From the NCBI GenBank assembly GCA_018655015.1, contig JABIKK010000013.1, forward strand, positions 1 to 44,070: DNA of 44,070 nucleotides, written 5' to 3'. A program made the translations under genes and the position numbers. This DNA comes from Candidatus Woesearchaeota archaeon. GTDB lineage: Archaea; Nanobdellota; Nanobdellia; SCGC-AAA011-G17; UBA489. Shown one piece after another: positions 10,579 to 44,070 of the stretch; within the stretch, counting starts at the first letter, position 1; every line of letters starts with the position of its first letter. A model generated the notes under the pieces. That model did no database searches. It saw only the letters and a list, made by a program, of their open reading frames with translations, and was not told where the DNA came from.

Positions 10579-11427
10579 ATGCTCAATATTAAACAAAAAG
10601 AGACTCTAAAAAGTTTAAGCAAACTAAAAACATCACTAGCGAGAAGACCAACAAAAAGAGACTCTAGTCAATTATATTCTCTCAGCCAAAAATATTTTGG
10701 ATCATGGAATAACCTAATGAACGCAGGAGGATTTGAAGTAAGTCATAATCAATATCCAGAAATTCCACAGATTTTAAGTCCAGAACTAGCTTACTTTTTA
10801 GGACTAGTAATAACGGATGGACATGTACAACATACATCTTTCAAACAAAAAGAAAGATCAACATGCTATATTTACACAAGTTATGAGTCTGAAGTTGAAA
10901 TAATAACTCCCCTAATACAAGAAATATTTAATTACACTCCTAAAATTTATCCAAAGAAGAAGAAAGGGTTTAACAAGAGAGTAAATTATCAAATATCAAT
11001 AAACTCAAAACCACTAGCTTGTTTTCTAAATAAAAAATTTAGTATCCCCTTCGGTGCTAAGTCCCATTTTTTAAAAGTCCCGTCAGCCATTTTGAACTCA
11101 ACAAAAATCAATAAAGCTAGTTTTCTAAGAGGAGTAATTGATGGGGACGGTTCAATAAAGAAGAATAAAGTATTGAGTATTTGTTCTGCATCTAGAATTT
11201 TTTTGAGAGGAATTAATAAAATATTAAATAGTTTAGATATTCAAACAAAAAATATATTAATCTCTGGGAGCATATTTCTAATTTACATTTCAAATAAAAG
11301 GGATTTAAATCGAATTTATTTTAACTGTTATAAAAATCAAAAGTATTGTTACCTAAGGAAGATAATCTCCCTTGAAAAGATAATCTTTAAAAGTGGAGAA
11401 TTAGAACAAAATAAGGTCCTTGCTTAG
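10579..11427 (+). CDS. LAGLIDADG homing endonuclease with N-terminal HNH-associated repeat
   Basis: 282 residues with two LAGLIDADG-type helices: AYFLGLVITDGHV (71-83, Asp80) and FLRGVIDGDG (182-191, Asp188/Asp190). The N-terminal segment RRPTKRDSSQLYSLSQKYFG...W fits the short DNA-binding repeat often linked to homing endonucleases. The protein is Lys/Ile/Asn-rich and the DNA is very AT-rich, as expected of a selfish gene. The 3' end enters the tRNA-Tyr gene. The last codons and the stop TAG (11425-11427) lie in tRNA sequence, the stop being tRNA bases 8-10. It is a single-chain, two-motif enzyme; its target is not known, but the tRNA-Tyr locus is the obvious candidate. Confidence 0.85.
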   Translation: MLNIKQKETLKSLSKLKTSLARRPTKRDSSQLYSLSQKYFGSWNNLMNAGGFEVSHNQYPEIPQILSPELAYFLGLVITDGHVQHTSFKQKERSTCYIYTSYESEVEIITPLIQEIFNYTPKIYPKKKKGFNKRVNYQISINSKPLACFLNKKFSIPFGAKSHFLKVPSAILNSTKINKASFLRGVIDGDGSIKKNKVLSICSASRIFLRGINKILNSLDIQTKNILISGSIFLIYISNKRDLNRIYFNCYKNQKYCYLRKIISLEKIIFKSGELEQNKVLA

Positions 11428-11539
11428 CTCAATGGTAGAGCGTTCGGCTGTAGATACTATTCGACGTTGCAATGTTGCAGAGAATGAAAAATAGTCAGCT
11501 GAAACCGAAAGGTTCCAGGTTCAAGTCCCGGAGCAAGGA
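11418..11539 (+). tRNA. tRNA-Tyr (GTA) with a 50-nt intron
   Basis: Acceptor stem CCTTGCT (11418-11424) pairs with AGCAAGG (11532-11538); C1-G72 and discriminator A fit archaeal tRNA-Tyr. The D-stem is GCTC/GAGC. The anticodon stem TTCGG/CCGAA frames the loop C-T-GTA-G^A. The exon joint between positions 37 and 38 places the intron at 11454-11503. The intron can pair ACTATT (11456-11461) with AATAGT (11490-11495) and CTG with CAG, but I do not see a textbook 4-bp/3-nt bulge-helix-bulge, so it may be relaxed. The T-stem has one A-C mismatch. A T-run follows at 11542-11548. Confidence 0.88.
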
Positions 11540-37259: not shown

Positions 37260-37595
37260 ATGAAACGAAAAGCAAAAAGAACTGTAAGGAAAGCAGTAAG
37301 AAAAGTTGCAAGAAAATCCGCAAGGAAAAGAGCAACTAGAAAAGTTGTAAGGAAGACCGCAAGGAAATCCACAGCTAGAAAAACTGCAAGAAAGACAGCT
37401 AAGAGAGCTACAAGAAAAAGAACTGTAAGGAAGACCGCAAGGAAATCCACTAGAAAGGCAGCTAGAAAGGTTGTTAGAAAAACTGCAAGGAAGAGAACAG
37501 CTAGAAAAACTGCAAGGAAGACCGCAAGGAAATCCACTAGAAAGACAGTTAAGAGAGCTACAAGAAAAAGAACAGTTAGAAGAAAACGAAAGTAA
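37260..37595 (+). CDS. Very basic histone H1-like repeat protein
   Basis: 111 residues composed only of Met (start), Lys, Arg, Ala, Thr, Val and Ser. The sequence is an irregular repeat of units such as RKTARKS, RKVVRKTA and KRATRKRTVR, resembling the tails of eukaryotic histone H1 and bacterial H1-like or AlgP-type proteins. It is expected to be disordered in solution and to coat DNA or RNA. The matching DNA contains repeated blocks (for example AGGAAGACCGCAAGGAAATC at several sites), so it probably grew by internal duplication. It has its own TATA box, ribosome binding site and terminator, which support a real, well-expressed gene despite low complexity. Confidence 0.75.
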   Translation: MKRKAKRTVRKAVRKVARKSARKRATRKVVRKTARKSTARKTARKTAKRATRKRTVRKTARKSTRKAARKVVRKTARKRTARKTARKTARKSTRKTVKRATRKRTVRRKRK

Positions 37596-40734: not shown

Positions 40735-41250
40735 ATGGGGAAAGAATCCAAATCACAATTATACCAGCATGGAAGCAAAAGAGGCTTTAGCCTAATTAGA
40801 TATGCGGGACTATACGACTTAAAGGCAATTATAGATGATACTAAAGCCCATCTTAGAAAATTAAGATATGATATTGATGACAAACAACACGATGAAAAAA
40901 TAAGTTCTAGTGGAAAAGAAATGAAAATTGTTTTTAGGTGTTTCAAAGAGATAACTGAATATGTTAAGTTTTACATGGAAGTTACAATAATAGTAGTTGG
41001 GCAAATTGACGTAATTGTAGACAAAAGAAAAGTAAAGAAAGGAAACTTTGATTATAGGTTAATGACAAGAGTTGAAAAGAATTACTCTGGAAGTAACAGA
41101 ACACCCACATTTAAAAAATCAAAATTGGGAGAACTCCAAAGACATCTTTACGAAAAGTTTATTATTAAGCAAGAACTCAGTGATAGGGAGGATGAGCTAC
41201 TTGACCAAGGTCAAGAACTATTAAACATGGTAAGAAAGCACTTATTATAA
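40735..41250 (+). CDS. Unrecognised protein, paralogue of the next gene (copy 1)
   Basis: 171 residues, soluble and Lys-rich. The segment GLYDLKAIIDDTKAHLRKLRYDIDDKQHDEK aligns by eye with GLFQLNDVYKEICNWAKKNRYDLDEKQYRCD of the next protein. Both continue with beta-strands (MKIVFRCFKEITEYVKFYMEV, DVIVDKRKVKKGNFDYRL) and end in a helical region. Start ATG lies one base after the upstream stop. No family name can be given. Confidence 0.7.
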   Translation: MGKESKSQLYQHGSKRGFSLIRYAGLYDLKAIIDDTKAHLRKLRYDIDDKQHDEKISSSGKEMKIVFRCFKEITEYVKFYMEVTIIVVGQIDVIVDKRKVKKGNFDYRLMTRVEKNYSGSNRTPTFKKSKLGELQRHLYEKFIIKQELSDREDELLDQGQELLNMVRKHLL

Positions 41251-41251
41251 C

Positions 41252-41746
41252 ATGGCATACTCAGATTTCATAGAAAGAGGGAACACAACATCCTTCAAAG
41301 GACTATTTCAACTAAACGATGTTTACAAAGAGATTTGTAATTGGGCAAAGAAAAATAGATACGATTTAGATGAAAAACAATACAGGTGTGATAGAGACCA
41401 TGGAGAAGAAACCCTTACAATTGTGTTAGAACTTAAGAAAAAAGTTAATGATTATGCAAAATTAGGCCTGGACATAACTATAAATGCTACAGGAATAAAG
41501 AACATAAAAGCAAAAAATAAAGTAATGCAGGAAGGAGAAGTTTCAATTTCAATCGATTCCTACATATTGAGAGATTATGATGATGTATGGAGCAGAAAAT
41601 TCTTAAACAGATTCCTCAGAGAATGCTTTGATAAATTCATAGCCCCTGGAAGGTTTGATGCAGATTGTAATGAGTGTAAAAAAGACCTAAAAGACCTTAA
41701 AAACATGTTAAAAGACTTCTTTAACGCACCTAAGCTTAAAAAGTAA
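41252..41746 (+). CDS. Unrecognised protein, paralogue of the previous gene (copy 2)
   Basis: 164 residues. It shares with copy 1 the N-terminal helix plus RYDLDEKQ motif, the central strands (LTIVLELKKKVNDYAKLGLDITI, VMQEGEVSISIDSYILRDY) and a C-terminal helix. Unlike copy 1 it has a CNECKK pair in the tail. It ends the three-gene operon; a TATA box for the next transcript follows 3 nt after the stop. Confidence 0.7.
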   Translation: MAYSDFIERGNTTSFKGLFQLNDVYKEICNWAKKNRYDLDEKQYRCDRDHGEETLTIVLELKKKVNDYAKLGLDITINATGIKNIKAKNKVMQEGEVSISIDSYILRDYDDVWSRKFLNRFLRECFDKFIAPGRFDADCNECKKDLKDLKNMLKDFFNAPKLKK

Positions 41747-41748
41747 AG

Positions 41749-41757
41749 TATATAAGG
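41749..41757 (+). promoter_or_regulatory. TATA box of the structured RNA / dnaG leader
   Basis: GTATATAAG lies just after the stop of the upstream gene. The expected start of transcription, about 25-30 nt on, falls at or just before the first stem (41781). Confidence 0.55.
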
Positions 41758-41780
41758 GGTTAAACATATATTTTTCTACT

Positions 41781-41991
41781 GCCCACTTCGGAATCACTCA
41801 ATTGAGCACGAAGAGGTCAAGCAATGAACTTGGGAGTTAGTTGTGGGCTAAATCATATATCATATTCAAAAATCAATAAAATCAAGAGATAAGATTATTG
41901 CCTAAGGGCACATCATAATCATTGTGGTCAATTGACCCATAGTTGCTAAGTAGTTAAAAACTACGAAGTTAGAAAGAAACAAGAGTGTTTC
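41781..41991 (+). ncRNA. Candidate structured RNA or long dnaG leader
   Basis: The 307 bases between the upstream operon and dnaG contain no convincing ORF but many stems. GCCCAC (41781-41786) pairs with GTGGGC (41843-41848), enclosing two hairpins: TTCG/CGAA (41787-41790 with 41809-41812) and CAAG/CTTG (41818-41821 with 41829-41832, loop CAATGAA). This makes a three-way junction. Downstream are TGCC/GGCA (41899-41910), the 12-nt palindrome GGTCAATTGACC (41926-41937), GTAGTT/AACTAC (41950-41964) and GAAACA/TGTTTC (41976-41991). I see no RNase P, SRP or 5S signature and no clear C/D boxes. It may be a stand-alone RNA or a cis-regulatory leader of dnaG. Confidence 0.5.
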
Positions 41992-42053
41992 AAACTATTT
42001 CTTGGTAATTTGATATGAAGTAATAGAAAGCGCAATATATGGAGGTGCGCATA

Positions 42054-43376
42054 ATGGGAAAAATAAGTTTAGTATCAGCAAAATATATAGTACATGCTTC
42101 AATTGCGGTTGAAGGCATGGTAGACAGACCGGATGTTATTGGTTCAGTTTTTGGACAAACAGAAGGCCTGTTAGGTTCAGACCTAGAACTCCGTGAACTA
42201 CAAAGTTCTGGAAGAATAGGTAGAATCGAAGTAGAATTATCAAGTAAAGACGGTAAAACTAGTGGAACGATTAGTATTCCAAGTTCATTAGATAAAACAG
42301 AAACAGCACTTATCGCTGCAGCAATAGAAACAATTGAGAGAATTGGGCCTTGTAACGCAAAAGTTAAGGTAACAATGCTTGAAGATGTTAGAGCTGCAAA
42401 GAGAGGAGTAGTTATTGATAGGGCAAAGGCACTATTAAGTAATTTAACTCATGGAACTCTTCCAGATTCAAAAGATATCAAGGAGAAAGTTTCCACCGCA
42501 GTAAGAGTTGCAGATATTGTTTCATATGGTAAAGACAAATTACCTGCAGGACCAGAAGTAAAGGATTCAGAATCAGTAATTCTTGTTGAAGGAAGAGCAG
42601 ATGTAATAAATTTACTAAGATATGATATCAAAAACGCAGTTGCAATGAACGGAACTTCAGTTCCAGAAACAGTTATCAGTCTTTCAAAGGTAAAAGAAGT
42701 CATAGTTTTCCTCGATGGAGATCGTGGAGGAGATTTAATCCTTAGAGAACTTAAAGCAGTTGCAGAAATTGAGTTTGTAGCTAGAGCACCGGATGGAAAA
42801 GAAGTTGAAGAAATAACTCACAAAGAGATCCACCAAGCTCTTAGAAACAAGATAAAGTTTGAAACTGCAATTGACAATCTAGGAACACCAAATCAAAAAT
42901 TCTCTGAAAGATCTAGAAGAACAGACACAAGAGCTAGACCTCAAACAAGAGAGAGAACTAGCAGATTTTCAAGAGATAGGAAAGAATTCAAACCTAGAGA
43001 AAGGAGAGAATTCAAACCTAGAGAAAGGAGAGATTTTCAACCAAGAGAACGAAGTTTTGACAGACCTCTAAGAATTCCAGTAGCTCAAAGAGAAAAATTC
43101 ACAAAACTAATGGATGAACTTAAGGGTTCTAAAGAAGCATACCTTCTTGACGGGAAATCCAATGTACTTGGAAAAGTTCCAACCAAAGAGATTGGTTCAA
43201 CAATTAAAGATATAGGGAGATCCGCAAATACAATATTAATTGATGGGTCTCTTACAAAAGACATCCTTGAATCTGCAGAAGTTGCAAGAATCAAATATCT
43301 AATAGGTACAAAATCCTATTTGAAGGATGTGCGTTCAAGAGTGAAGGTTCTAACAAGAAAGGACCTTCAGCAATGA
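42054..43376 (+). CDS. dnaG: Archaeal DnaG (Toprim primase-like, exosome-associated)
   Basis: 440 residues. The N-terminal archaeal DnaG region (SAKYIVHASIAVEGMVDRPD, FGQTEGLLGSDLELRELQ) is followed by a Toprim domain with Glu179 in VEGRADV and the acidic motif Asp221-G-Asp223. In archaea this protein is reported both as a primase and as an RNA-exosome subunit. Residues about 290-345 form an Arg-rich low-complexity linker including three copies of an EFKPRERR-like unit. I chose ATG 42054 because GGAGGT lies 7 nt before it; an ATG at 42039 overlaps that signal. Its leader may include the structured RNA upstream. Confidence 0.93.
   Translation: MGKISLVSAKYIVHASIAVEGMVDRPDVIGSVFGQTEGLLGSDLELRELQSSGRIGRIEVELSSKDGKTSGTISIPSSLDKTETALIAAAIETIERIGPCNAKVKVTMLEDVRAAKRGVVIDRAKALLSNLTHGTLPDSKDIKEKVSTAVRVADIVSYGKDKLPAGPEVKDSESVILVEGRADVINLLRYDIKNAVAMNGTSVPETVISLSKVKEVIVFLDGDRGGDLILRELKAVAEIEFVARAPDGKEVEEITHKEIHQALRNKIKFETAIDNLGTPNQKFSERSRRTDTRARPQTRERTSRFSRDRKEFKPRERREFKPRERRDFQPRERSFDRPLRIPVAQREKFTKLMDELKGSKEAYLLDGKSNVLGKVPTKEIGSTIKDIGRSANTILIDGSLTKDILESAEVARIKYLIGTKSYLKDVRSRVKVLTRKDLQQ
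42984..43055 (+). repeat. 24-nt tandem repeat inside dnaG
   Basis: Two exact copies (42984-43007 and 43008-43031) and one diverged copy (43032-43055) encode EFKPRERR, EFKPRERR and DFQPRERS in the Arg-rich linker. The unit stays in frame. Confidence 0.85.
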
Positions 43377-43929: not shown

Positions 43930-43932
43930 ATA

Positions 43933-44070
43933 CAGGCCGCAGAAGATGGAATCAAACACCAATACTGGCTAACCCCAAACTTTCCTCCACTTCGTTACCC
44001 TAAAAGCACCGATAACAATGATTAAGGCTGCTCCCGTCAGGGTCTGACCTGGTTCTCAAGACTACCAACC
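43933..44070 (-). ncRNA. Signal recognition particle RNA, 3' part (cut by window edge)
   Basis: Read on the minus strand, GAACCAGGTCAGACCC, TGAC, GGGAGCAGCC is the conserved helix 8 of SRP RNA (44026-44049 holds the core GGTCAG...GAGCAGCC). It is followed by a TTATCGGTGC segment resembling the 3' strand of helix 5. This RNA binds SRP54 and targets membrane proteins to the translocon. The 5' part is beyond the window. The 3' boundary is uncertain; I place it near the end of the upstream convergent gene. The apical tetraloop reads TGAC instead of the common GGAA/GNAR. Confidence 0.8.

Follow-up and report, generated by a model that had tools for sequence, protein, structure and literature searches.

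Three parts define an archaeal box H/ACA guide RNA: a hairpin with a pocket, a K-turn and an ANA box (PMC4652768). Such a hairpin has a lower stem of 7–9 bp, an internal loop and an upper stem, and it pairs with an rRNA on either side of an unpaired U-N. The K-turn with a three-base bulge is defined in PMC7991803, which also gives the archaeal rule that the ANA box lies 14–16 nt from the target position, and productive guides of Pyrococcus have a GA stem of 10 layers (PMC4652768). In helix 69 of 23S rRNA, Psi1915 and Psi1917 were reported in Haloarcula and termed universally conserved (PMC2584109), and in other archaea the RNAs Pf7/Pab40 and Afu4 guide modification of the 1915 equivalent (PMC2584109; PMC4652768). 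The literature that we searched contained nothing on an RNA linked to dnaG, nor on guide RNAs in Woesearchaeota.

The window analyzed here is a stretch of 44,070 nt from a Candidatus Woesearchaeota archaeon, and its DnaG has metagenome-assembled genomes of Ca. Woesearchaeota and Nanoarchaeota as closest named relatives. Directly upstream of dnaG, positions 41749-42053 contain no open reading frame of at least 60 aa except the start of dnaG itself, as the initial annotation had stated, and Rfam 15 yielded no credible match at strict or relaxed settings. No tRNA or tmRNA was present at that place, and the family models for RNase P RNA and SRP RNA matched elsewhere in the genome and not before dnaG. 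The initial annotation had proposed a single structured RNA without a known signature. The RNA is real and lacks a matching Rfam family, but it consists of two elements, 41781-41852 and 41881-42006, and the first carries the signature of an H/ACA guide with a defined rRNA target. We consider 41781-41852 to be very probably the gene of a box H/ACA guide RNA for pseudouridylation, directed at U1915 in helix 69. This reading is based on the fold, its conservation, the complementarity and co-variation with rRNA, the spacing from the TATA box and the cbf5 gene. The features of the promoter, the guide and the downstream gene are as follows.

41749..41755 (+): TATA box TATATAA, identified by sequence, 32 nt upstream of the first hairpin base
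41781..41852 (+): very probable box H/ACA guide RNA, whole (match of model R1 at 41781-41854; structure and feature counts)
41781..41786 (+): lower stem, 5' strand GCCCAC, partner GUGGGC at 41843-41848; two-sided changes in 8 of 9 lower-stem pairs
41790..41796 (+): 5' guide strand GGAAUCA, complementary to 23S 1917-1923 UGAUUCU of congeners with one G-U pair
41797..41801 (+): upper stem, 5' strand CUCAA, partner UUGGG at 41830-41834; two-sided changes in 4 of 5 pairs
41804..41805 (+): K-turn, GA of the non-bulged strand; GA in 82 of 86 rows
41806..41807 (+): two-pair stem past the K-turn, GC, partner GC at 41821-41822; GC/GC and GU/AC covary
41808..41820 (+): apical hairpin region, weakly formed in the window; homologues show covarying pairs at the same columns
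41823..41827 (+): K-turn, bulged strand AAU-GA; NA(U/G)GA in 84 of 86 rows
41836..41839 (+): 3' guide strand GUUA, complementary to 23S 1911-1914 UAAC, 14 nt from the ANA box
41850..41852 (+): ANA box (AAA), one base past the lower stem; N-ANA there in 83 of 86 rows
42054..43376 (+): dnaG, encoding an archaeal DnaG of the exosome type (Toprim)

When 60 relatives were searched at the DNA level, segments of the first ~80 nt were recovered from many, and all 21 aligned loci were located upstream of dnaG. Ten of these loci were used to build the covariance model R1, to which an alignment of 85 distinct homologues was fitted. In this alignment, the RNA forms one extended hairpin with two-sided changes in 16 of 19 pairs, compared to 7.7 ± 1.2 in shuffles; here and below, counts over related genomes or homologues are not independent of one another. 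Pairing was possible in 95.7% of the alignment cells and dropped to 34–44% when the partners were slid by 1–3 columns. The lower stem comprises 6 + 3 pairs around a small bulge and is followed by an internal loop and an upper stem of 5 pairs, and both stems covary, although in the window sequence itself only the 6 outer pairs of the lower stem are clear. Compensatory combinations in the upper stem include CUCAA/UUGGG, CCUUG/CAGGG, CGCGA/UCGUG and CCAAA/UUUGG. The structure of R1, to which the alignment was fitted, included the lower stem and apical pairs only, and the covariation of the upper stem is therefore not circular. Thereby, the GCCCAC/GTGGGC stem of the initial annotation was confirmed as a covarying structure, and compensatory changes in relatives were indeed found. 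In contrast, the three-way junction with two hairpins that this stem was thought to enclose did not hold up: it was drawn by energy folding, yet its z-score was only -0.88, its CUC/GAG core hairpin had 0 covarying pairs in the 85 homologues, and the bases of the other hairpin pair elsewhere in the covarying structure. A hand-made fold with an AAGC/GCUU hairpin was likewise dropped, since the upper stem (columns 25-29/72-78) offers the bases of this hairpin better pairing. A register shift with the pairs C25-G81, U26-A79 and C27-G78 showed covariation at one pair only and may represent an alternative state.

At the end of the upper stem, GA faces NAU-GA; next come a stem of two pairs (GC/GC or GU/AC) and the apical hairpin. 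In 80 of 86 rows, 9 layers were counted on the 5' strand of the GA stem, a number inside a loose range of 8–11 and below the value of 10 in Pyrococcus. The 3' guide is 5 nt long in 83 of 86 rows, and its distance to the ANA box, 14 nt in the window and thus inside the archaeal range, was counted as 14–16 nt in other rows. From the pocket-closing pair to the ANA box, most rows have 15 or 17 nt, the longer value resulting from the bulge in the lower stem. A search for H/ACA proteins, which covered Cbf5, detected cbf5 above the cut-off in the genome of the window.

On the 5' side, the strand in the pocket reads GAGAAUA, GAGAAUUA, GAGAAUCA or GAGAGUA, and GGAAUCA in the window, while the 3' side reads GUUA. 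Each of the two strands is complementary to a part of helix 69 of 23S rRNA, 5'-UAAC-U1915-A1916-U[A/G]A[U/C]UCUC-3' in E. coli numbering. As the 23S gene of the window was not found in its assembly, the target was taken from congeners, two of which have the rRNA sequence UAACUAUGAUUCUC together with the guide GAGAAUCA, so that pairing reaches both free bases, U1915-A1916. Judged from these complementarities, the predicted target is Psi1915 of helix 69 (E. coli numbering). In most homologues, the 5' guide has 7 nt and has to bulge one target base.

Guide and target also vary together. Among the 56 genomes that have both sequences, U1920 was accompanied by GAGAA in 27 of 28 cases and C1920 by GAGAG in 26 of 28; since this contrast mostly falls between the order and the other members of the class, and since kinship inflates the counts, the numbers are to be read as support and not as a probability. 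The mean best guide-target pairing was 6.54, compared to 6.00 ± 0.07 for shuffled targets, and was unmatched in 10,000 shuffles. Inside the order, the family f9 carries GAGAG in 7 of 7 guides and C1920 in the single f9 rRNA seen (G054). Guides ending with UCA go together with G1918 in the genus of the window, in G077 and in G024, and G024, a member of a family other than f9, has the guide UAGAAUCA and the rRNA UGAUUCUC. In G256, the guide matches its altered rRNA only in part.

Transcription would start ~30 nt past the TATA box, so that the hairpin would come first on a transcript heading to dnaG. The K-turn would be bound by L7Ae, and Cbf5 with Nop10 and Gar1 would assemble on the lower stem and the ANA box. 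The pocket strands would pair with UAAC and U[A/G]A[U/C]UCUC, which flank the loop of helix 69 on its two sides, and would leave U1915 (E. coli numbering) unpaired for isomerization by Cbf5. Presumably, 1915 rather than 1917 would be the main site. The guide is presumably co-transcribed with dnaG and could subsequently be released from the dnaG mRNA or retained on it.

The initial annotation had noted a TATA box at start-site distance, and a TATA-like element beginning 26–40 nt upstream of the hairpin was present in 77 of 85 homologues, compared to 19 of 85 for a control stretch closer to the hairpin. This common spacing indicates that the hairpin probably forms the extreme 5' end of its transcript. 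Model R1 matched 85 of 103 genomes of the order, with a single copy in 84 of those 85, and 45 of the 47 more complete genomes. In the class, 141 of 281 genomes had a match, 73 of the 141 belonging to other orders; the class genomes without a match, about half of the sample, may lack the guide, contain diverged copies or be incomplete. The N-terminus of DnaG was found downstream, at a distance of 85–524 nt, in 82 of 85, 37 of 40 and 20 of 21 of the loci inspected (139 of 146 overall). The suggestion of an archaeal non-coding RNA outside the known families was borne out, and this RNA is tied to dnaG.

In other orders, 15 loci (among them L155, L157, L160 and L165) carry a second H/ACA-like hairpin ~80 nt upstream, directly before the guide, with conserved AAAUGGGUCC... 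and GACACUCUUG...ACA. A target was sought for this extra hairpin and not found, and in the order of the window no such hairpin was seen. Two adjoining weak guide matches in L114 (G091), positions 1413-1561, perhaps represent a degraded or rearranged guide copy. On the opposite strand just 3' of dnaG, the window contains an SRP RNA gene (43930-44070, minus strand) that runs beyond the window end to 44200, and in G014, G038 and G012 no more than a few kb likewise separate the SRP RNA from the dnaG locus. Upstream of the TATA box, 40735-41250 and 41252-41746 (+) encode neighboring proteins without Pfam match that look similar to each other (RYDIDDKQ / RYDLDEKQ) and possibly arose from a tandem duplication. 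Farther away, an ORF of 111 aa at 37260-37595 (+) consists nearly entirely of Lys/Arg/Thr/Ala repeats (RKTARKTARK) and resembles a DNA-binding repeat protein, and a 122-nt Rfam tRNA match at 11418-11539 (+), missed by ARAGORN, is probably an intron-containing tRNA.

The further stems reported downstream of the first hairpin were substantiated as a second element. Relative to shuffled sequences, the whole 305 nt of 41749-42053 had a folding z-score of -3.22, and for 41878-42020 it was -5.21, with 0 of 200 shuffles folding as well. This part of the locus comprises the following features.

41881..42006 (+): second element, putative folded dnaG leader with a closing helix (41881-41891/41996-42006) and four inner hairpins; z = -5.21, helix class-wide, covarying flanks
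41852-41856, 41859-41863, 41912-41916, 41918-41922 (+): four AUCAU motifs of a UCAY cluster, identified by sequence; enrichment in 149 leaders
42041..42045 (+): GGAGG, ribosome-binding site of dnaG, identified by sequence

The closing helix is positioned in front of the dnaG ribosome-binding site. At many loci of the class, a similar helix, typically AGRRCAAG/CUUGUUCU, encloses a variable segment ahead of dnaG. Picking the best helix at each locus is biased towards finding helices, and anchoring on the arm sequence with evaluation of the flanking pairs only is the fairer test; the flanking pairs of the AGRRCAAG-type helix covary, most notably the first pair inward and the first two pairs outward. 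Across the order, 12 of the 16 genomes with a match to the closing-helix pattern had it at the dnaG locus. Such helices were also seen in loci of the distant families f23 and f37, in which the region ahead of dnaG yielded no guide hairpin. The motif (A/U)UCA(C/U) occurred 3.49 times per leader, compared to 1.32 expected from dinucleotide shuffles, and at least once in 148 of 149 leaders. In 128 of 154 loci, the joint densest 60-nt segment for this motif was located inside the leader. The motifs are found mainly in the 5' 40% of the leader, and the unpaired state is slightly more frequent among them than among composition-matched controls (0.53 versus 0.46). UCAY is a recognition motif of KH domains. 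Rrp4 and DnaG are the RNA-binding subunits of the archaeal exosome according to PMC7667871, so that a KH-mediated feedback is conceivable. We read 41881-42006 best as a putative cis-acting leader of dnaG, and feedback between dnaG and the exosome through it is a guess. An extended version, which we regard as speculative and unlikely to hold as a whole, would make the element a new class of archaeal leaders with a long helix just before the dnaG ribosome-binding site and a UCAY cluster presented to a KH protein, e.g. the exosome subunit Rrp4, a partner of DnaG, whose binding could exert feedback control on the exosome. With the guide at its 5' end, one transcript would then link rRNA modification and RNA decay.

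Several other explanations have to be weighed against a guide for U1915. Through shifted pairing, the guide might act chiefly on U1917, or on U1915 together with U1917, which is possible, if rather unlikely. Haloarcula has pseudouridine at both positions and a single hairpin was proposed for both (PMC2584109), and the common 7-nt guide GAGAAUA can leave three or four target bases unpaired. However, the guide in the genus of the window pairs through U1917 and frees exactly U1915-A1916, the 14 nt between the 3' guide and the ANA box in the window argue in the same direction, and the Pf7 and Afu4 guides modified only the 1915 equivalent in vitro (PMC2584109). The hairpin could instead be a cis-regulatory K-turn in the leader of the dnaG mRNA, by which L7Ae tunes dnaG and to which the rRNA match is secondary. 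Control of translation by L7Ae via K-turns in archaeal mRNA leaders is described in PMC5539422, and dnaG follows at 139 of 146 loci. We nevertheless judge this explanation improbable, because it leaves the invariant pocket strands, the co-variation with helix 69 and the ANA box unexplained and because ~230 nt separate the K-turn from the start codon. A regulatory role of the K-turn could coexist with the guide role.

The initial annotation had also considered a riboswitch-like leader controlling dnaG. A conserved structured RNA before one gene, with a second folded element ahead of the ribosome-binding site, would suit a ligand-sensing riboswitch formed by the whole stretch, but the conserved bases in the first element are explained by the H/ACA features, dnaG does not belong to the metabolic genes, and a non-systematic look revealed no alternative pairing that masks the ribosome-binding site. 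A small-molecule riboswitch is thus without positive support and hardly credible, whereas the idea of a leader may fit 41881-42006, as this element persists before dnaG in families without a detected guide.

With the guide reading, an anonymous stretch is turned into a specific prediction, a guide for a conserved pseudouridine of helix 69 in a large DPANN group for which we found no guide RNA in the literature searched, and the covariance model allows the guide to be detected elsewhere. The guide is a further H/ACA RNA of a known kind, and the leader at 41881-42006 is the novel part. The guide has a fixed position before dnaG, the gene of an exosome subunit, and the class-wide UCAY leader separates the two, so one may ask whether rRNA modification and RNA decay share their expression or their regulation. 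Should the leader prove regulatory, it would be a new cis-acting RNA of archaea.

Among the described systems, the hairpins Pf7.3, Pa40.3 and Af4.3 of Pyrococcus and Archaeoglobus, with a related motif in M. jannaschii, are also K-turn H/ACA guides to the 1915 equivalent, but they are parts of RNAs with several hairpins, whereas the RNA in the window has one hairpin only and opens the dnaG leader. It is unmatched by Rfam 15 models. It is likened to them by its predicted function, and by this analogy it should work like the Pf7/Pab40/Afu4 guides. The HP2 hairpin of Haloferax and Haloarcula, proposed for Psi1956/1958, is likewise a proposed guide for the 1915/1917 equivalents (PMC2584109), but it is joined to a second hairpin over a long spacer, and no second hairpin was seen in the order of the window. 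An H/ACA sRNA of Nanoarchaeum equitans is likewise a guide RNA from a reduced archaeon and has K-turn bulges, ACA and a box A promoter of its own; in contrast, it has two hairpins in 159 nt and is located between the gene for tyrosyl-tRNA synthetase and a hypothetical gene and not at dnaG. The leader of the Sulfolobus l7ae mRNA also contains a K-turn in an archaeal 5' leader but is a translational autoregulator, for which the consulted passages of PMC5539422 describe no guide pocket or ANA box.
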